Position numbers and translations under genes: made by a program
Notes under the pieces: model-generated
What the model saw: the letters and a program-made list of their open reading frames with translations, nothing else
The model's database searches: none
What the model was told of the DNA's origin: nothing
Part shown: positions 4,018 to 13,108 of the stretch, piece by piece
How the letters are laid out: every line of letters begins with the position of its first letter
Numbering within the stretch: the first letter of the stretch is position 1
DNA from: Lachnospiraceae bacterium
GTDB taxonomy: Bacteria > Bacillota > Clostridia > Lachnospirales > Lachnospiraceae
DNA: 64,000 nt
Assembly: GCA_910575005.1 (NCBI GenBank)
Contig: CAJTCL010000011.1
Coordinates: 62,001 to 126,000 of the forward strand
Direction: 5' to 3'

Positions 4018-5874
4018 TTGAGAGTACTGATAGAAAATAACCAGCTTTTAATAAAAAAGATATTTTTAATAATATATGATGCATTCGCTGTGATAGCGGC
4101 CAGTATATTGGCATTGGTTTTACGTTTTGAAGGTAAGTATCATGAGATTCCGAGAAAATATGTGGAAAGAAGTTTACAGTATATTATAATCGTTATTGTA
4201 ATAACAATTATAATATTTTATGTATTTCGTCTGTATGACAGTCTTTGGAGTTATGCAGGTGCTACAGAACTCAGCAGTATTTTATTTGCATGTATTTTAT
4301 CTGCAGGAGTGCAGATGGCGGTTATGATATTGATGGAGATGCAAATGCCCAGAAGCTATTATTTATTTTATGGTGTCTGTCTGTTTGCAATGGTAGCAGT
4401 CAGCCGTTATTCCTATCGAACATTTCGTACTATTGTCAAGAGACAAAAATTAGCTAAGGAATGCACCAATGTATTGATGGTGGGAGCTGGAGGCGCAGGA
4501 AATATGCTGGTGCGGGAAATTTGTAACAGCAGTCATGTTAATAAAAGGGTAGTCTGTATTGTAGATGATGCAAAGGCAAAACAGGGAAGTTATCTGCATG
4601 GTGTCAAGATTATGGGAGGTCGTGGTGACATTCCTAGGTTGGTTAAGAGATATCAAGTAGATGAGATTATGATTGCGCTTCCCTCTGCACCTGCAAGGGA
4701 AATCAAAGAGATTTTGGATATCTGCAAAGAGACAGGATGTGAGATGAAGCGTCTTCCAGGAATGTATCAATTAGTTAATGGAGAGGTAAGCATCAGTACC
4801 TTAAAAGAGGTGGAGGTCAATGACTTGTTAGGCCGTGAGCCAGTGGAAGTGGATTTATCTGCGATTTTAGATTATGTAGCAGGTAAAACAGTTTTGGTAA
4901 CTGGCGGGGGCGGTTCCATCGGCAGTGAGATTTGCCGACAGGTGGCAGAGCATAATCCGAAAAGGCTTGTTATTGTGGATATCTATGAAAATACAACATA
5001 TGATATTCAAAATGAATTGAAGGCAGCTTATCCTAATTTAGATTTAACTGTTTTGATTGCCTCTGTCCGAAATACCAAGAGGATTGATTTTATTTTTCAA
5101 AAATTTCGTCCAGATATTGTTTATCATGCTGCAGCGCATAAACATGTGCCTTTGATGGAGGATAGTCCTAATGAGGCAGTAAAAAATAATGTCTTGGGAA
5201 CCTTAAAAGTGGTTCAGGCAGCTGACCGCTGGAAAGTGAGGCGTTTTGTGATGATCTCCACGGATAAAGCGGTAAACCCTACCAATATTATGGGAGCCAC
5301 CAAGCGAATTTGTGAAATGATTATTCAGACTTATAATAATCATTCCAAGACGGAATTTGTGGCAGTACGTTTTGGAAATGTGTTGGGAAGTAATGGAAGT
5401 GTGATTCCACTATTTAAAAAGCAGATTTCTCAAGGGGGACCAGTGACAGTGACACATCCTGATATTATCCGCTATTTTATGACTATCAAAGAGGCTGTGT
5501 CTTTGGTACTGCAGGCAGGTGCTTATGCCAAAGGTGGAGAGATTTTTGTACTGGATATGGGCGAGCCGGTGAAAATAGCAGATTTGGCGCGAAATCTTAT
5601 TTTATTATCTGGTCATAAGCCGGAGGAGGATATTCCAATTGTATATACAGGCTTAAGACCAGGGGAGAAACTGTATGAGGAAATGCTTATGGATGAGGAA
5701 GGGCTGCAGGAGACAGACAATAAGCTGATACATATTGGGAAACCGATCAAGATGGATGAGGATCGTTTTCTGATGCAGTTAGAAAATCTTGCAAATTATG
5801 TGATTCAGGAACCAGAAGATATTCGCAGATGGGTACAGGAGATTGTGCCGACTTATCATCCACAAGGAAATTAA
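4018..5874 (+). CDS. Membrane-bound UDP-GlcNAc 4,6-dehydratase (PglF/WbpM/CapD-like)
   Basis: 618 residues, full length for the large PglF/WbpM-type family. The start is TTG 4018, with AGAGG about 7 bases upstream. Four membrane helices (about residues 10-125) anchor it. A first Rossmann fold has GAGGAGN near residue 157, and a catalytic SDR domain starts with VTGGGGSIGSE near 295 and carries STDKAVNPTNIMGATK near 413. Family members convert UDP-GlcNAc to a 4-keto-6-deoxy sugar using bound NAD. The PLP aminotransferase downstream fits the next step, giving a 4-amino-4,6-dideoxy-HexNAc as in bacillosamine synthesis. It is monocistronic or leads the next transcript, since hairpins follow. Substrate is inferred from family and context. 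Confidence 0.85.
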   Translation: MRVLIENNQLLIKKIFLIIYDAFAVIAASILALVLRFEGKYHEIPRKYVERSLQYIIIVIVITIIIFYVFRLYDSLWSYAGATELSSILFACILSAGVQMAVMILMEMQMPRSYYLFYGVCLFAMVAVSRYSYRTFRTIVKRQKLAKECTNVLMVGAGGAGNMLVREICNSSHVNKRVVCIVDDAKAKQGSYLHGVKIMGGRGDIPRLVKRYQVDEIMIALPSAPAREIKEILDICKETGCEMKRLPGMYQLVNGEVSISTLKEVEVNDLLGREPVEVDLSAILDYVAGKTVLVTGGGGSIGSEICRQVAEHNPKRLVIVDIYENTTYDIQNELKAAYPNLDLTVLIASVRNTKRIDFIFQKFRPDIVYHAAAHKHVPLMEDSPNEAVKNNVLGTLKVVQAADRWKVRRFVMISTDKAVNPTNIMGATKRICEMIIQTYNNHSKTEFVAVRFGNVLGSNGSVIPLFKKQISQGGPVTVTHPDIIRYFMTIKEAVSLVLQAGAYAKGGEIFVLDMGEPVKIADLARNLILLSGHKPEEDIPIVYTGLRPGEKLYEEMLMDEEGLQETDNKLIHIGKPIKMDEDRFLMQLENLANYVIQEPEDIRRWVQEIVPTYHPQGN

Positions 5875-6194: not shown

Positions 6195-6245
6195 AAACGA
6201 AAATATAACGTGGAAAGCACAGATATTGTGTTTATGGGAGGAAAA

Positions 6246-7427
6246 ATGAAACAACATATTTTTCTTGCTTCACCACATATGAGTGAAGAGGGATATGAAC
6301 AGGATTATATTAGAGAAGCATTTGAGACGAATTGGATTGCGCCTCTTGGTAAAAATGTGACAGAATTTGAGAAGGAGATAGAGAAAAAGCTGGGAGCAGG
6401 GAAAGCAGTTGCGCTTTCTTCAGGGACAGCAGCAGTACATATGGCGTTGAAAGCAGTTGGGATAAGTCAGGGTGATGTGGTATTTTGCCAATCTCTGACT
6501 TTTTCTGCGACAGCAAACCCTATTGTCTATGAAAAGGCAGTTCCGGTGTTTATTGACAGTGAGCAAGATACCTGGAATATGGATCCCAAAGCCTTGGAAC
6601 AGGCATTTGAGAAATATGAAAAGATTGGAAAGAAGCCCAAAGCAGTCATTGTGGTGCATCTCTATGGAATTTGTGCCAAAATAGAAGAAATTGCTGAGAT
6701 TTGTAATCGTTACAGGGTAACTTTGATTGAAGATGCGGCAGAGAGTTTAGGGACAACTTATCATGGCAAATACACAGGGACTTTTGGAGATTATGGTATT
6801 ATCAGTTTTAATGGCAATAAAATAATCACAAGTTCTGGCGGAGGAATGCTGCTGGTAAATACAAAAGACGCCGAAGAGAGAGCCGCCAAGGTACTTTATT
6901 GGGCAACTCAAGCCAGAGAACCTGCTCGATGGTATCAGCACACAGAGATTGGTTATAATTATCGTATGAGTAATGTAGTGGCAGGTATTGGAAGAGGACA
7001 ATTGAGAGTTTTGCAGAGACGCATAGAGAAGAAAAGATACATTTTTGATTATTATCGCAGGCGCCTCGGAGATTTGCAGGGGATTCAGTTTATGCCACAA
7101 CCAAAGGAAGGATATTGTAATTGCTGGCTTTCGGTTCTTGAAATGTCTCAGGAATGTCCTGTGAAACCGATAGATCTTATGAAGGCCTTGGAAGAAGATG
7201 ATGTGGAGAGTCGTCCAGTCTGGAAGCCCATGCATCTGCAGCCAGTGTTTGACGAATATGATTTTATTTCTCAGATAGAAGATTTGCATATTATAGATCA
7301 GGAAACAGGGGCGGATCATAGTATTGCTGGACAGTTGTTTGAATATGGTGTCTGTATGCCCAGTGATACAAAGATGACAGATGAGGATTTGGAGCGGGTT
7401 TGCAGTGTGGTGAAAATGTTGTGGTAG
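6246..7427 (+). CDS. PLP-dependent DegT/DnrJ/EryC1/StrS aminotransferase (PglE-like)
   Basis: 393 residues from ATG 6246, chosen because GGGAGG lies at 6236-6241; an in-frame GTG at 6210 lacks a ribosome site. The sugar aminotransferase fold is evident: GTAAVHMAL near residue 62, LIEDAAESLG near 163, and the PLP lysine in NGNKIITSSGGG at about K192. The C-terminal part has the usual SRPVWKPMHLQP. Such enzymes transfer an amino group from glutamate to the 4-keto group of a UDP-linked 4-keto-6-deoxy sugar. Together with the dehydratase at 4018 and the NeuD/PglD acyltransferases at 11833-13108, this suggests a bacillosamine-like or related 4-amino sugar. It has its own promoter at 6166. Confidence 0.88.
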   Translation: MKQHIFLASPHMSEEGYEQDYIREAFETNWIAPLGKNVTEFEKEIEKKLGAGKAVALSSGTAAVHMALKAVGISQGDVVFCQSLTFSATANPIVYEKAVPVFIDSEQDTWNMDPKALEQAFEKYEKIGKKPKAVIVVHLYGICAKIEEIAEICNRYRVTLIEDAAESLGTTYHGKYTGTFGDYGIISFNGNKIITSSGGGMLLVNTKDAEERAAKVLYWATQAREPARWYQHTEIGYNYRMSNVVAGIGRGQLRVLQRRIEKKRYIFDYYRRRLGDLQGIQFMPQPKEGYCNCWLSVLEMSQECPVKPIDLMKALEEDDVESRPVWKPMHLQPVFDEYDFISQIEDLHIIDQETGADHSIAGQLFEYGVCMPSDTKMTDEDLERVCSVVKMLW

Positions 7428-7468
7428 AGTGACAACAATATTTATTAATTATGGAAGAGGGTGTAACA

Positions 7469-9172
7469 ATGCACGATCAGCCGTTGGCAATTGGGGTAGA
7501 TGATTTTGAGAAGCTTATCACCAAAGGTTACTATTATGTAGATAAGACAGGATTTATAAAAGAACTGCTTGATAAAAAGGGAGAGGTGAGTCTTTTTACA
7601 CGTCCGCGGCGGTTTGGCAAGACCTTGAATCTTAGTATGCTGAAATATTATTTTGAAGATACAGGAAATGAGGAACAAAACAAAAGAAATGCAGAGCTGT
7701 TTTCCGGGCTTTGGATTGCAGATGCAGGGGAAAGCTATGTGAGAAAGATGGGGCAGTACCCAGTGATTATGCTGACTTTAAAATCGGCAAAGCAGAGGAC
7801 ATATGAGGAGGCATTTTACTGTCTCAAGGAGGCTGTTGCAGAAGAGTATGCAAGGCATGAAAAGGCAGTGATTGACAGATTAGAACATTCAGAAGATCTA
7901 GAGAAGTATAGGAGTATTCGTGGAAGAACGGCAGAAGCATCAGACTATTTGACCAGCATAGCATTTCTATCGAAATGTCTATACCAGGCATTTGGAAAGA
8001 AATGTGTGATATTGATAGATGAATATGATGTACCACTGGAGAATGCCTATTTTTGTGGGTTTTATGAGCAGATGGTAAGTTTTGTGCGTTCGTTGTTTGA
8101 GTCTTGCTTAAAATCAAATCCATATCTGGAATTTGCAGTGGTAACAGGATGCTTAAGGATCTCCAGAGAATCTATTTTTACAGGACTGAATAACCTGGAA
8201 GTGATATCAATAACCAGAAAGGATTATGGAGAGTATTACGGTTTTACACAGTCAGAAGTTGATCGAATGCTGAAAGCATATCAGATGGAGGAACATGCAA
8301 AGGATGTAAAACAGTGGTATGATGGGTATCTGTTTGGAGAGACAGAGGTTTATAATCCGTGGAGCATTATCAATTTTGTAAAAGTGCATGTTACAGACCG
8401 AGACGCATTTCCAGTGCCATACTGGGCAAATACCAGTTCGAATAGTGTGGTGAGAGATTTGGTGGAGCGTATAGACGATGAGGAAGGGGAATTGAAGGAG
8501 GAATTAGAGCATCTGATGAATGGGGGAACGATAGAGAAGCCAATCCATGAAGATATCACCTATGATGCCATATACGATTCTCAGGATAATCTGTGGAATT
8601 TTTTGTTTTTTACAGGATATTTGAAAAAGGTGGCAACACACAAAAAAGGGAAGAAAAACTATGTCACTATGTCTATTCCCAATGATGAGGTTGCATATAT
8701 CTATGAAAATACTATTTCAGTATGGTTTGAGAAAAAACAGAAAGGGTTTGAGATGTCGCCGCTATATAAGGCAATCGAAGAGGGAGACACAGAGGGGATG
8801 GAGGAAGAGATCAACCGATTTTTGGAAGAGACGATCAGTTATTTTGATTATGGAGAGAGCTATTATCATGGATTTCTGGCAGGGCTGCTGCGTCAGAATC
8901 GCAAATATCGAGTGCTGTCCAATCGGGAGACAGGACTGGGACGTGCAGATCTGATCTTAAAAACACCACGAATTCGTAAGGGAAGAGCAGTGATCCTGGA
9001 GTTGAAAGCAGTACAGAAATTTCAGGAGATGGAGAAAGGATGTGAGACGGCGCTGCGCCAGATAGATGAGAAGAAATACCAGGAGGAATTAAGGCAGGAA
9101 GGGTATGAGGATATTTTGGCCTATGGGATCTGTTTTTACCGGAAGGAATGTGTGGTGCGGGAAAAATGGTAA
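7469..9172 (+). CDS. AAA-ATPase / PD-(D/E)XK nuclease-like protein (DUF1703 type)
   Basis: 567 residues from ATG 7469; GAGGGTG just upstream and the family's usual start (an IGVDDFEKL-like beginning) favour it over ATG 7451. The N-terminal AAA-like region has FTRPRRFGKTLNLSML (Walker A, near residue 46) and VILIDEYDVPLENA (Walker B-like, near 185). The C-terminal region has GLGRADLIL followed by AVILELK, a D...ExK pattern of the PD-(D/E)XK_9 type. Family members are very common, often multicopy, in Bacteroidetes and Clostridia; their function is not established, with mobile or defence roles suspected. It sits in the same orientation inside the polysaccharide locus, 41 bases after the aminotransferase, but has no evident metabolic link to it. 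Confidence 0.85.
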   Translation: MHDQPLAIGVDDFEKLITKGYYYVDKTGFIKELLDKKGEVSLFTRPRRFGKTLNLSMLKYYFEDTGNEEQNKRNAELFSGLWIADAGESYVRKMGQYPVIMLTLKSAKQRTYEEAFYCLKEAVAEEYARHEKAVIDRLEHSEDLEKYRSIRGRTAEASDYLTSIAFLSKCLYQAFGKKCVILIDEYDVPLENAYFCGFYEQMVSFVRSLFESCLKSNPYLEFAVVTGCLRISRESIFTGLNNLEVISITRKDYGEYYGFTQSEVDRMLKAYQMEEHAKDVKQWYDGYLFGETEVYNPWSIINFVKVHVTDRDAFPVPYWANTSSNSVVRDLVERIDDEEGELKEELEHLMNGGTIEKPIHEDITYDAIYDSQDNLWNFLFFTGYLKKVATHKKGKKNYVTMSIPNDEVAYIYENTISVWFEKKQKGFEMSPLYKAIEEGDTEGMEEEINRFLEETISYFDYGESYYHGFLAGLLRQNRKYRVLSNRETGLGRADLILKTPRIRKGRAVILELKAVQKFQEMEKGCETALRQIDEKKYQEELRQEGYEDILAYGICFYRKECVVREKW

Positions 9173-9289: not shown

Positions 9290-11077
9290 GTGGGGGGGGG
9301 GTACAAATGTTCGATTGTTTGTCCTTTGTTGTTGGGAGGCTTGTCTTTATTATCATTTTGTATGACAAAATTTTTATCAAAATGTACAGGGAGTATATCA
9401 GAGATTTTAACGCTTTTTAATGAGCAAGTAAAGTCTATGGAAGTACTGCTAATAACTGCATGGTTAGGTATAAGCGGGTCATATTTGCAGTGGCTGAAAA
9501 GAATAGAACGAAAATTGAATGGAGGAGTTATAGGAATATCCATTTTATTTTCTTTTTTTACTTCTTTGCATGCATCTATGCCGAATGTTAATGCTGTGGC
9601 AAATCCTAATTCTATTTTGTTTTTATTGCATATGTCAGGATACTTTATTTTTTACTATATCGTTATAACTTATCTGTATGACTATTTGTTTGAATTCTCT
9701 GGAAAGATAAATCAGGAAGTGTTGTCATTTAGCCGTAAAAAAATGTTTATAACAAGTTTTATATGTTTATTTTTGTTGTGGTTTCCTTATATTATTATGT
9801 GTGCTCCTGGAAATATGATGTGGGACACAGGTTTATCAATAGAGCATAGCCTGGGATTGAGGCAGGTAAATAATAATCCATTTTTTCAAAATTATATTTA
9901 TGGTCTAGTGTATCATTTTGGGACACTAATTGGTAATATTTCTATCAGCGTATTTTTATATAATTTTTTGCAGCTAATTTTATTTAATGCAGTCATTTCT
10001 TATGGAATTGTGATATTAAAGGGGCATCATGTTCCCTCTATACTTTTGATAGGTATCATTATATTGTATGGATTATTTCCTGTATTTCCAATATATGCAT
10101 TTTGTATGGGAAAGGATTCTAATTTTGCACTATGTCTTTTGATGTTTAGTATCCTTATTTTTGAGCTAGTTACAAATAAAGTCAGATTTTTGTCAGATAA
10201 AAGAAATATTATATTATTGTTCTTTATTTCAATTTTATTAAGTCTACTTCGAAATCAGGCATATTTGATTGCTGTGATTTGTTTATTTGTTTGTTCTTTT
10301 GTGAAAGATAAAAAGAGTTTCCGAAAATTATTGTGGGGGATGAGTTTTATTGTTTTAATCAGCAATTTGACCATTCCAAAATTACTGCATATTCCTCAAT
10401 CAGATTTATCCGAAAATTTATCTATACCGTTGCAGCAGACCGCCTATTATGTTAATCGTTACAGAGATGAGATCACAGAATCAGAGAAAGCTGTGATTGA
10501 CAGGGTGATTCCATATGAAGCTTTGGATTTATATAATCAGGGAATTTCTGATCCAATCAAAGATAAATTTGATAATTTGGCAGATAAAGATGCAATTTGT
10601 AGTTATATTAAGGTTTGGTGGAAACATTTTCTTACCCATCCAGATGCATATTTGAAAGCATCATTTTATGGAAATTATGGATATTATTTTCCGACTGCAA
10701 ATAGAAATGATTTGAAGGGACATACTTTTGTAGGATATGAGGTAGATCCTGCTATTTTTAACAAGACAGAGTTAGAAGATAATACAAATCCTGGAATAAA
10801 AATTGTAAATATGATTGACAGCTATGTGACAGATACGCCAATATTAGGAGTATTTCAGAAAATTGGTATATATACATGGATTATGGCAGTTACTGTTCTT
10901 TTTGTGTTGTTACAAAAAAAATATAAATGGCTGCTTTGTATTTGTCCAAGTTTGTTTGTTTTTATTGGGAGTTGTTGTTCGCCGGTCAATGGATATTTTC
11001 GCTACGCATTTCCAATGATTGTTTGTATTCCTATAGTCTGTACAATGGTGCTGTTTGCTCTAATAGATGAAATATAA
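9290..11077 (+). CDS. DUF6020-like polytopic membrane protein, start disrupted by poly-G
   Basis: The long frame encodes 595 residues from GTG 9290, the only start in this frame before a TAG at 9278; it has no ribosome site and lies at the poly-G tract. There are many membrane helices, with paired tryptophan/aromatic motifs and the block APGNMMWDTG near residue 172 plus an SPVNGYFRYAFP element near 565. These resemble DUF6020 family proteins of Gram-positive polysaccharide and teichoic loci, thought to be glycosyltransferase-like (GT-C) enzymes. The natural product probably begins at ATG 9261 (MEKMEISQKKW...) and requires 8 or 11 G in the tract. With 10 G here it would be off or weakly made. 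The family call is from memory of the motif pattern. Confidence 0.65.
   Translation: MGGGYKCSIVCPLLLGGLSLLSFCMTKFLSKCTGSISEILTLFNEQVKSMEVLLITAWLGISGSYLQWLKRIERKLNGGVIGISILFSFFTSLHASMPNVNAVANPNSILFLLHMSGYFIFYYIVITYLYDYLFEFSGKINQEVLSFSRKKMFITSFICLFLLWFPYIIMCAPGNMMWDTGLSIEHSLGLRQVNNNPFFQNYIYGLVYHFGTLIGNISISVFLYNFLQLILFNAVISYGIVILKGHHVPSILLIGIIILYGLFPVFPIYAFCMGKDSNFALCLLMFSILIFELVTNKVRFLSDKRNIILLFFISILLSLLRNQAYLIAVICLFVCSFVKDKKSFRKLLWGMSFIVLISNLTIPKLLHIPQSDLSENLSIPLQQTAYYVNRYRDEITESEKAVIDRVIPYEALDLYNQGISDPIKDKFDNLADKDAICSYIKVWWKHFLTHPDAYLKASFYGNYGYYFPTANRNDLKGHTFVGYEVDPAIFNKTELEDNTNPGIKIVNMIDSYVTDTPILGVFQKIGIYTWIMAVTVLFVLLQKKYKWLLCICPSLFVFIGSCCSPVNGYFRYAFPMIVCIPIVCTMVLFALIDEI
9292..9301 (+). repeat. 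Poly-G tract (10 G) at the start of the DUF6020 gene
   Basis: Ten consecutive G bases in an otherwise low-GC region. The best ribosome site/start pair upstream (AGAGGAT at 9248-9254, ATG 9261) reads into the tract in a frame that stops soon after (at 9363-9365). The long downstream frame would be joined to ATG 9261 if the tract had 8 or 11 G, and to ATG 9211 if it had 9. This is the layout of a slipped-strand contingency switch. Confidence 0.75.
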
Positions 11078-11140: not shown

Positions 11141-11177
11141 GTACGGAATGAATATTTGAAGTCAAAGAAGGATGAGT

Positions 11178-11786
11178 ATGTACGAGAAGATTATAAAACG
11201 TTGTATAGATTTTTTATTGGCATTGACAGCATTAGTTGTGTTAAGCCCTGTTTTTATTATTGTGTCCATTTTAGTTAAAATAAAATTGGGTAGTCCAGTG
11301 ATGTTTAAACAAAAACGACCAGGGAAAAATGAAAAAATATTTTGTATGTATAAGTTTCGTACAATGACAGATGAAAGAGGTGCAGATGGGGAGTTGTTGC
11401 CAGATGAGGAACGTTTGCCGAAATTTGGCAAGCTTTTGCGCAGTACCAGCTTAGATGAGCTTCCAGAATTATGGAATATATTGAGAGGAGATATGAGTAT
11501 TGTTGGTCCGAGGCCATTATTAATACAATATTTGTCCTTATATAATGAAAAGCAACGCCATAGACATGATGTCAGACCGGGATTTACTGGATTGGCACAG
11601 GTGAATGGAAGAAATGCGATTAGCTGGGAAGAAAAATTTGAGTGGGATATTAGATATGTAAATCATGTTACATTTACAGAAGATATAAAAATAATTTTAA
11701 AAACGATAAAAATTGTGCTGAAACGAGAAGGTATTAGCAGTAATACAGCAGTGACAATGGAATATTTTAGGGGAAATGATAATTAA
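11178..11786 (+). CDS. PglC-type polyprenyl-phosphate sugar phosphotransferase
   Basis: 202 residues from ATG 11178; AAGAAGG ends 6 bases upstream, whereas it abuts the alternative ATG 11172. One re-entrant N-terminal hydrophobic helix (about residues 10-30) is followed by the monotopic phosphoglycosyltransferase core: [34 protein letters not shown] and VGPRPLL. Small enzymes of this kind move a sugar-1-phosphate from a UDP-sugar to undecaprenyl phosphate, the committed step of glycan assembly; PglC uses UDP-diacetylbacillosamine. The two acyltransferase genes that follow match the PglC-PglD order and support a modified amino sugar as substrate. It has its own promoter at 11112. Confidence 0.88.
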
Positions 11787-11832: not shown

Positions 11833-12495
11833 TTGGATGAGATGAAAAAAATTTTAATATTTGGCGCGGGTGGATTTGGGAGAGAAGTACAATGGCTGAT
11901 TGAACGAATTAACCAGATGAAACCAATTTGGAAAATTGAGGGTTATTTGGATGATGGTATTGAGTCAGGCACTGAGATTAATGGTTATAAAGTATTAGGG
12001 GGAGTGGAGAAACTCCAAGAGTTTGATGCTTCTGTTTCTGTGGTTTGTGCAGTTGGTTCTGCTAGAATAAGAGAAAAAATTATATCTAGAATCAAACAGA
12101 TTGGCAAATTTCAGTTTCCGAATCTGATTGATCCAGATGTACAAATGTCTCAATTTATATCTATGGGAGAAGGAAATATTATCTGTGCAGGAAATATTCT
12201 GACCGTAAATATTACGCTTGGAGATTTTGTGATTTTAAATCTTTCTTGTACAATAGGACACGATGCAGTTTTGGAATCCTTTGTGACAGTCTATCCTGGT
12301 GTAAATATTTCTGGTTGTACTAAGATGGAGCAGGGAGTGGAATTGGGAACAGGGAGCAAGATTATCCAAGGCATTACGGTGGCAAAAAATACGATTGTTG
12401 GAGCAGGTGCCGTGGTAGTGCGCCATATGCCCTCAGAATGCGTTGTAATGGGAGTTCCAGCAAAACCCTCAAAATTCGGGGGGGGGGGGATATAG
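11833..12495 (+). CDS. NeuD/PglD-type sugar O- or N-acyltransferase (first copy)
   Basis: About 220 residues. The start is uncertain: TTG 11833 has GAGGGT 8 bases upstream, while ATG 11842 gives the family-typical start (MKKILIFGAGGFGRE) but has no spaced site. It has an N-terminal nucleotide-sugar binding Rossmann half (GAGGFGRE) and then a left-handed beta-helix with hexapeptide repeats (GAGAVVVRHMPSECVVMGVPAKPSK). PglD transfers acetyl from acetyl-CoA to UDP-4-amino-4,6-dideoxy-GlcNAc; this is the likely role given the dehydratase and aminotransferase upstream. The last sense codons read GGG four times inside a 12-G tract before ATA-TAG. Loss of one G would read straight into the next gene. 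Confidence 0.82.
   Translation: MDEMKKILIFGAGGFGREVQWLIERINQMKPIWKIEGYLDDGIESGTEINGYKVLGGVEKLQEFDASVSVVCAVGSARIREKIISRIKQIGKFQFPNLIDPDVQMSQFISMGEGNIICAGNILTVNITLGDFVILNLSCTIGHDAVLESFVTVYPGVNISGCTKMEQGVELGTGSKIIQGITVAKNTIVGAGAVVVRHMPSECVVMGVPAKPSKFGGGGI
12478..12489 (+). repeat. Poly-G tract (12 G) joining two acyltransferase genes
   Basis: Twelve consecutive G bases at the end of the first acyltransferase frame. With 12 G the frame stops at TAG 12493-12495. With 11 G it continues as GGGG-Y-R-K-L-L-I-V-G into the second acyltransferase, giving one fused protein. With 13 G it stops after five further codons. No start codon exists in the second frame between TAA 12446 and GTG 12509. Confidence 0.85.
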
Positions 12496-12508
12496 AAAGC
12501 TTTTAATT

Positions 12509-13108
12509 GTGGGAAATAGCGGTCATGGAAGGGTAATAAAAGATCTGGCTCGTCAATTAGTTTTTTATCAAGAAATAAAATTTCTGGATGATAATAAAAA
12601 GGTTCAGCAAGAAAATCCTTCAGTATTGGGAGGAAGCAATGAGGCAATACATTATAAGGATGAATATGACATGATCATTGGTATTGGAAATGTCGGAATC
12701 CGCAGAAGGCTGCAGGAAAAGTATGAGACAGAAGGAATATCTATGGTGTCATTAATTCATCCGCATGCTCAGCTTCCAGAGGAATCAATAATGATTGGTG
12801 CAGGAAGTGTTATTATGGCAAATTCTGTCATTCAAACAGGTACAGTATTAGGAAAAGGTGTTATTATAAATACCAATGCATCTATAGACCATGAATGTAA
12901 GATTGGTGACTATGTACATATTGCAGTGGGTGCCCGTCTTGCGGGAAATGTGGAAATTGGGAATGATACATGGATAGGAGCAGGCGCAGTAATCAGTAAT
13001 AATATCTGTATTTGTGAAAAAGTGGTGGTAGGAGCAGGCGCAGTAGTAGTTAGGAATATTACACAAAGTGGAACTTATGTTGGGATTCCAGCAAGAAAAA
13101 TAGATTGA
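12509..13108 (+). CDS. NeuD/PglD-type acyltransferase (second copy), N-terminus disrupted
   Basis: 199 residues from GTG 12509, the first start in frame, but no ribosome site precedes it. Reading upstream in frame gives Y-R-K-L-L-I-V before GNSGHGRVIKD, which is the normal first beta strand of this family, so the GTG start cuts a conserved element. The rest is intact: GIGNVGIRR, left-handed beta-helix repeats (VIMANSVIQTGTVLG, GAGAVISNN, GAGAVVVRN) and a GIPARKID end. It is a paralog of the preceding gene, possibly acylating another sugar position or another sugar. Expression as drawn probably needs slippage on the 12-G tract (a fusion protein of about 430 residues) or weak coupled re-initiation. 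The enzyme call is firm; the expression mode is inferred. Confidence 0.72.
   Translation: MGNSGHGRVIKDLARQLVFYQEIKFLDDNKKVQQENPSVLGGSNEAIHYKDEYDMIIGIGNVGIRRRLQEKYETEGISMVSLIHPHAQLPEESIMIGAGSVIMANSVIQTGTVLGKGVIINTNASIDHECKIGDYVHIAVGARLAGNVEIGNDTWIGAGAVISNNICICEKVVVGAGAVVVRNITQSGTYVGIPARKID

Follow-up and report, generated by a model that had tools for sequence, protein, structure and literature searches.

A poly-G tract in the linker between two acyltransferase domains as a probable slipped-strand switch in a Lachnospiraceae glycan locus

Slippage in long runs of G is established for other bacteria, and phase variation of many loci through simple repeats is best known in host-adapted Gram-negatives. 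A fusion involving pglB2 was reportedly described by Viburiene et al. in 2013. The closest described systems come from Neisseria and Campylobacter. In the excerpts available of PMC5320596, the Neisseria gonorrhoeae genes NGK_1211 and NGK_1212 are presented as a case of ‘C-terminal phase variation’ in which the coding sequence behind becomes fused, and the same excerpts cite work in which N. meningitidis pglB2 is fused with a downstream phosphoglycosyltransferase gene, apparently via a poly-A tract. Neisseria PglB is described as a bifunctional acetyltransferase/phosphoglycosyltransferase (PMC11130364, in extract). In Campylobacter jejuni, the difference between 8 and 9 Gs switches the gene cgtB (PMC6437147, in extract). 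According to the available part of a 2025 review (PMC11868660), the association between repeat-based phase variation and pathogens could reflect selection during host colonisation or, more prosaically, database bias.

Here, we describe a related arrangement in a Lachnospiraceae bacterium (assembly GCA_910575005.1), located in a stretch of 64,000 nucleotides from contig CAJTCL010000011.1, referred to as the window. Two neighbouring acyltransferase frames, A and B, meet at a tract of 12 Gs (Table 1). This G12 is very probably a slipped-strand contingency tract in the glycine linker of a two-domain N-acyltransferase, with a VioB-like A domain and a PglD-like B domain. Judged from its reading frames, the junction has one frame state that would extend the first protein into the coding sequence that follows, as in the Neisseria cases.

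Table 1. Features of the acyltransferase locus and its surroundings, in window positions
Feature	Position	Strand	Remarks
PglF-like nucleotide-sugar dehydratase	4018..5874	+	Pfam Polysacc_synt_2 9.2e-124
DegT/LegC/PglE-like sugar aminotransferase	6210..7427	+	Pfam DegT 7e-89
G10 tract	9292..9301	+	Close to the 5' end of the ORF for a DUF6020 membrane protein (9290-11077)
PglC-like phosphoglycosyltransferase	11172..11786	+	Pfam Bac_transf 3.7e-63
Acyltransferase A, NeuD/VioB-like	11842..12495	+	217 aa in the present frame; ATG 11842; ends GGGG-I-stop
G12 tract	12478..12489	+	Exactly 12 G; A/B frame junction, codes for the Gly linker; relatives have a tract or linker at this position
Acyltransferase B, PglD-like	12488..13108	+	Open from the tract (GYRKLLIVGNSGHG...) to its stop; out of frame with A here
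GTG	12509..12511	+	Earliest start available to the B frame; beginning here would cost the N-terminal domain its strand 1 (KLLI)

As in NGK_1211/NGK_1212 and pglB2, so far as the extracts of PMC5320596 and PMC11130364 describe them, a repeat tract near the 3' end of the first gene would choose between alternative C-termini and downstream fusion, and as in pglB2, the enzymes that are joined belong to a bacillosamine-type pathway. Unlike pglB2, for which the extract of PMC5320596 gives a poly-A tract and a phosphoglycosyltransferase partner, the present locus combines a poly-G tract with two acyltransferase paralogues in a host that is not Neisseria. It also differs from Neisseria PglB as outlined in the extract of PMC11130364, since the acetyltransferase is joined to a VioB-like acyltransferase and not to a phosphoglycosyltransferase. 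Like the poly-G contingency loci of C. jejuni covered by the extract of PMC6437147, the locus has its poly-G in a surface-glycan gene, and slippage would toggle it in the same way. In cgtB, the outcome is one truncated enzyme, whereas here the first enzyme would remain whole while the second is added or removed. Because tract-mediated fusion is known in Neisseria, the kind of switch is not new; it is the host group that is unexpected. Among the matches listed from the open-licence PMC literature, none dealt with poly-G switching in Clostridia, Lachnospiraceae included. The literature search found no Campylobacter cases of joined neighbouring genes, and fusion terms were absent from the one review that was searched for them.

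The first-pass annotation had placed a G12 on the junction of two NeuD/PglD-type frames, and direct reading of the sequence agrees with it to the base, in a draft assembly of 88 contigs where a count of 12 may be off by one. The first protein ends as had been stated, with ...SKF-GGGG-I-TAG and its stop at 12493-12495; TTG 11833 or TTG 11818 are possible earlier starts. After the tract, the B frame continues GGA TAT AGA AAG CTT TTA ATT GTG GGA (G-Y-R-K-L-L-I-V-G). Between the preceding in-frame stop and GTG 12509, this frame contains no ATG, GTG or TTG, and by eye the GTG has no ribosome site at a useful distance. The earlier claim that this is the only start available to B, and that it cuts off the conserved first strand, therefore stands. 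So does the claim that 11 Gs fuse the frames and 13 close them, as the sequence requires 3n+2 Gs (11 or 14) for a continuous A-B frame, and with 13 Gs the A frame runs into a TAA shortly past the tract, within a few codons. A continuous protein is likewise encoded in the fused frame, but it is slightly shorter than the 430 or so residues first suggested, at about 421 aa from the ATG of A; the fusion in one relative, G002, is also 421 aa. Since B in the broken frame lacks a good start, the choice would lie between ‘A alone’ and an ‘A-B fusion’ instead of the ‘separate and fused forms’ of the annotation.

The same junction can be followed in related species. A protein search of 29 genus genomes, one per species and including our own, matched A or B in nine, six of which have both. 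The two form one unbroken ORF in four of the six, with linkers encoded by G9 (G002), G11 (G014), G5 (G009) or no tract at all (G025, with a YGKGY linker). In the other two, the frame is broken exactly at the tract: our own genome with G12, and G004 with G13 after T6. The single ORF is 420-422 aa in G002, G009 and G025. In G014, the locus lies on two contigs that have about 470 identical bases in common, one of which stops about 67 codons into B while the other carries an N within A. A further genome, G007, has B without A, behind an open stretch of 39 codons and a G9 that does not lead into B, and two more (G012 and G020) have an A match alone, without a G-run of at least 7 at the A end. Tract length at one site thus differs between species and gives both frame states, with none, 5, 9 or 11 Gs in frame and 12 or 13 out of frame. 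A count fixed at 12 is not what the relatives have at the species level, and the proposal of a phase-variable switch is well supported by four fused and two tract-broken junctions, a comparison that is between species only.

At the junction, all four fused relatives lack an ATG for B. The B frame of G004 has a TTG immediately ahead of the tract, with no visible ribosome site, and the relatives keep the KLLI-type strand residues that a start at GTG 12509 would remove. In all three OFF tracts (our own, G004 and G007), the count is one G over the continuous frame. Because four of the six pairs are one ORF, no junction ATG exists for B in the fused relatives, and B is intact, the fusion seems to be ancestral, the working form on which selection acted, and the 12-G and 13-G forms look like OFF states for B. 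A separate B gene was considered as the normal state and rejected, as the relatives have no junction ATG, while separate genes outside the genus have their own starts.

B has remained under purifying selection, including in the OFF lineages, according to rough pairwise Nei-Gojobori counts. pN/pS is 0.23-0.48 for B (21 pairs from seven genomes) and 0.11-0.30 for A (15 pairs from six genomes), values that are rough because synonymous sites are near saturation in most pairs. For B, our own genome against G014 gives 0.23, and G004, which is OFF, against G025, where the fusion is fixed, gives 0.26; this latter pair is also the least saturated (dS 0.48, dN 0.098). No internal stops occur in B in the seven genomes, and both OFF genomes have it intact. 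B is less conserved than A, with 54-70% identity between our own genome and its relatives, compared with 72-81% for A.

The tract itself is very unlikely to be a product of base composition, which bears out what had been said of it at first pass. When the window was dinucleotide-shuffled 100 times, no shuffle contained a G12, and Markov models (order 1-5) trained on the window itself predict 4e-5 to 1.1e-3 runs of at least 12 per window (at most about 0.001), or 0.003-0.075 per 4.29 Mb. Nine-G overlapping matches number six in the window, against a shuffle mean of 0.22 and a maximum of five, so that none of the 100 shuffles reached six. The window has no G/C runs of 7, 8 or 9, and then one G10 and one G12. 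A chance origin of the G12 was set aside on these shuffles and expectations. Across our own genome, six runs of at least 10 were seen against about 0.13-1.5 expected, an extrapolation from the window-fitted models. For runs of at least 9, the seven observed equal the 7.0 expected under the order-1 Markov model, the weakest null, and there is no excess. Genome-wide, a clear excess of G-runs shows only at lengths of 10 and above, and in their placement.

Both enzymes are readily assigned to a family. Against TIGR03570 (NCBIfam, cutoff 160.8), A scores 195 bits and B 206 bits; the profile scans of A were run from TTG 11818. A matches Pfam PglD_N and Hexapep, and the PglD_N alignment of B, taken from GTG 12509, begins only at model position 5. 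The best solved relative of the G002 A domain is VioB (7txp, E 2.6e-34). For the G002 B domain it is 4m98, a ‘Pilin glycosylation protein’ (E 7.4e-46), followed by 3bss, a UDP-N-acetylbacillosamine N-acetyltransferase (1.7e-37), and PglD structures at about 1.6e-37. We take 4m98 to be the acetyltransferase domain of N. gonorrhoeae PglB and 3bss to be C. jejuni PglD. Each hexapeptide domain has a histidine, within TIGHD in A and SIDHE in B, and the matching H in G002 B aligns with the VDH of 4m98; this is presumably the catalytic residue. These families suggest that A and B may both acylate a 4-amino-4,6-dideoxy sugar. B, judged by its G002 orthologue, resembles Neisseria PglB and C. jejuni PglD in its nearest structures and in lying beside PglF-, PglE- and PglC-like genes.

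By its predicted gene content, the pair is part of a PglF/PglE/PglC-like, bacillosamine-type module. Dehydratase, aminotransferase, acetyltransferase and phosphoglycosyltransferase are all present, which together make up the gene set for UDP-diNAcBac (PglF-PglE-PglD-PglC). The dehydratase has a homologue in five of the seven genus stretches compared (L056 and L058-L061, but not L057 or L062), and of the 22 loci with A or B that were compared, 16 also have a phosphoglycosyltransferase homologue. The aminotransferase reaches 365 bits against TIGR04181, below the cutoff of 420 for this LegC model. In the four genus relatives at L057-L060, it lies directly upstream of A-B, and the phosphoglycosyltransferase follows. 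Downstream of A-B in the window are glycosyltransferases, a UDP-sugar dehydrogenase, a weakly Wzy_C-like protein (below cutoff) and a flippase-like protein. The cluster also contains an AAA-ATPase-like/PDDEXK_9 gene at 7451-9172, and a homologue with 69-71% identity lies near the module in G007 and G009.

Beyond the genus, 397 family genomes, sampled evenly from a wider set, were searched with the fused protein, and 13 of them, our own included, had matches at E <= 1e-60. None of the 15 non-own family loci that were read has an A-B fusion. A and B are separate neighbours in L046, L048 and L049, in the order B-A in two and A-B in one, and each gene has its own start (ATG in five of the six; the B of L048 has TTG behind AGAGGG). 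As assembled, the A of L046 stops after 48 codons. G tracts lie at the C-terminal end of the first enzyme in L048 (G9) and in L049 (G7). In five further loci (L040, L042, L044, L047 and L050), A alone was seen with an aminotransferase and a phosphoglycosyltransferase; as these loci are only about 3.6 kb long, B may lie further away. In G007, only B takes this place beside the same two enzymes. Such A-only and B-only loci hint that A and B could be alternatives acting on one substrate. Another fusion at the C-terminus of an A-type enzyme occurs in L041 (G299), where a single 664-codon frame, with no G tract, joins it to an unrelated partner, by eye a 3-hydroxyacyl-CoA-dehydrogenase-like domain. 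G8 runs also lie upstream of A genes at L054:2159 (G201) and L111:2214 (G020), adjoining the ATG in L054 and some 60-80 nt before it in L111, which suggests that tract control of A-type enzymes may have arisen at other places.

The coding sequence is intact on both sides of the G12, and a change in its length alters the frame. Under the contingency-tract reading, replication slippage (slipped-strand mispairing) would add and remove Gs at a high rate, and because of this, a population would be a mixture of cells with the A-B fusion (a tract of 3n+2) and cells with A alone, carrying a short glycine tail. Our own assembly would have caught the A-only phase, with B OFF and A still made. One step further, A and B might act on the 4-amino sugar supplied by the PglF/PglE-like pair, before transfer to a lipid carrier by the PglC-like enzyme; if so, the switch would alter sugar acylation in a surface polysaccharide or glycoconjugate. 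More doubtful, and offered tentatively, is the idea that this low-GC, Clostridia-like genus has poly-G contingency loci throughout its surface-glycan genes, like Campylobacter and Neisseria, and that in it the tract picks which acyl group is placed on the priming 4-amino sugar. A alone would then yield one N-acyl form, and the A-B fusion another.

Several alternatives to the contingency tract need to be weighed. Homopolymer counts are error-prone, particularly where the assembly is a draft such as ours, and with four relatives fused and both broken copies one G over, the true tract might be in the fused frame of an ordinary two-domain acyltransferase. We consider an assembly or sequencing error of this sort quite improbable, as G004, which is assembled into four contigs, has 13 Gs at this tract and is broken there too, and both in-frame and out-of-frame states are found at further tracts of the genus. 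Should the count be off by one, a tract of 11-13 Gs would still be expected to stay unstable. Decay is less probable again, and we give very little credence to B as a pseudogene domain that was permanently lost through a chance indel in a G-rich linker. It would fit the greater divergence of B than of A and the occurrence of B without A in G007, but the seven genomes are free of stops in B, pN/pS is well below 1 in 21 of 21 pairs, and the tract is expanded, not merely one base off.

An unlikely reading, though one with more in its favour than error or decay, is that no real OFF state exists, B being made by reinitiation at GTG 12509 or the fusion by transcriptional slippage or ribosomal frameshifting. 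The stop of A is just 13 nt from this GTG, long G-runs could make RNA polymerase slip, and the selection on B, together with three OFF tracts that share the same excess, would be accounted for. Against it stand the want of a useful ribosome site by eye and the loss, from a GTG start, of KLLI-type residues that relatives keep; moreover, the four fused relatives need no shift, and other tracts in the genus would need one in either direction. A programmed frameshift was set aside on these last two points, yet the three OFF tracts here do share the +1 offset, and a common slip may compensate for the one extra G in our own genome, G004 and G007. Reinitiation or transcriptional slippage could also leave some B activity where the tract is out of frame.

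If the tract does act as a contingency switch, its output would be unusual, in that both states yield A and differ in whether a second domain is attached. The A-B case would indicate that a tract coding for a linker can add or remove a whole enzyme domain and leave the first enzyme intact. More broadly, multi-locus phase variation through simple repeats would reach Clostridia-like bacteria if a genus carries poly-G tracts, some in frame and some out, in genes of fucosyltransferase, MBOAT, glycosyltransferase and acyltransferase type, and slippage-based diversification of surface sugars becomes testable in this group.

At least one G-run of 9 or more occurs in 26 of the 29 genus genomes, the other three having none. 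The 63 such tracts that were read comprise all of those in our own genome (7/7), G002 (6/6) and G004 (11/11), most in G009 (12/13) and G003 (20/21), some in G007 (4/17), and one from G014 and two from G025, each from a single stretch. Twelve lie within one frame that is open for at least 55 codons on both sides, and ten join two different long frames, with an offset of +1 in six and +2 in four. Without the studied junction, which contributes four of these 22 tracts, ten are in frame and eight join frames. Since the remaining 41 of the 63 fall into neither class (short upstream part, gene ends or intergenic positions), not every tract is a coding switch. In their frames, with some tracts in and some out, the genus tracts are distributed as contingency loci would be.

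A Pfam scan covered 39 of the 58 coding segments listed and one gene with a G8, and 12 of these 40 had no match. The tract-bearing genes include MBOAT, Acyl_transf_3, GT4, GT11, methyltransferase, formyltransferase, epimerase and GNAT types. Others are not obviously related to glycans: an AraC-type regulator, an FtsX-like permease, a subtilase, an ArdA-like protein, an integrase, DNA polymerase III delta, an ABC-2-like membrane protein and an FMN oxidoreductase. Because such genes are among the matches too, an enrichment of tracts in glycan genes across our own genome and the relatives sampled is an impression. GT11 (fucosyltransferase-type) genes carry tracts in their 5' part at L082:5003 (G009; G9, two frames) and L102:2055 (G007; G12, one frame), which presumably resemble those of Helicobacter futC.

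The seven G-runs of at least 9 in our own genome are spread over four contigs, with two in the window, two on C1, one each on C4 and C15, and one elsewhere on C11. The second window tract, the G10, precedes the body of the DUF6020 gene, and the best upstream start by eye, ATG 9261, which AGAGG precedes by a few nt, is not in frame with that body, so the gene seems to be phase-variable and OFF. No close DUF6020 orthologs were found in the genus, as three of the 29 genomes matched, including our own, and the other two did so at 27-28% identity. On C1 (L017, own C1:286000-301000), a G10, a G8 and a G11 lie on the minus strand at 4821, 7659 and 9987, within about 5 kb, each breaking a gene. The G11 and the neighbouring G8 break two genes that we take to encode FkbM-like methyltransferases, with Pfam silent for the two segments scanned, and the G10 breaks a radical-SAM-like gene (match below the Pfam cutoff). 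On C11, a G9 at L019:4403-4411 lies inside an MBOAT O-acyltransferase, whose Pfam profile is split across two frames; this is possibly another O-acylation switch in the same genome. On the minus strand of C4, a G10 (L018:4084-4093) lies 37 nt upstream of a TPP riboswitch (Rfam RF00059, L018:3948-4046, 65.6 bits) and is possibly a promoter-spacing tract. On C15, a G10 (L020:4510-4519) separates an ORF that is excisionase-like by eye from a phage-type integrase.
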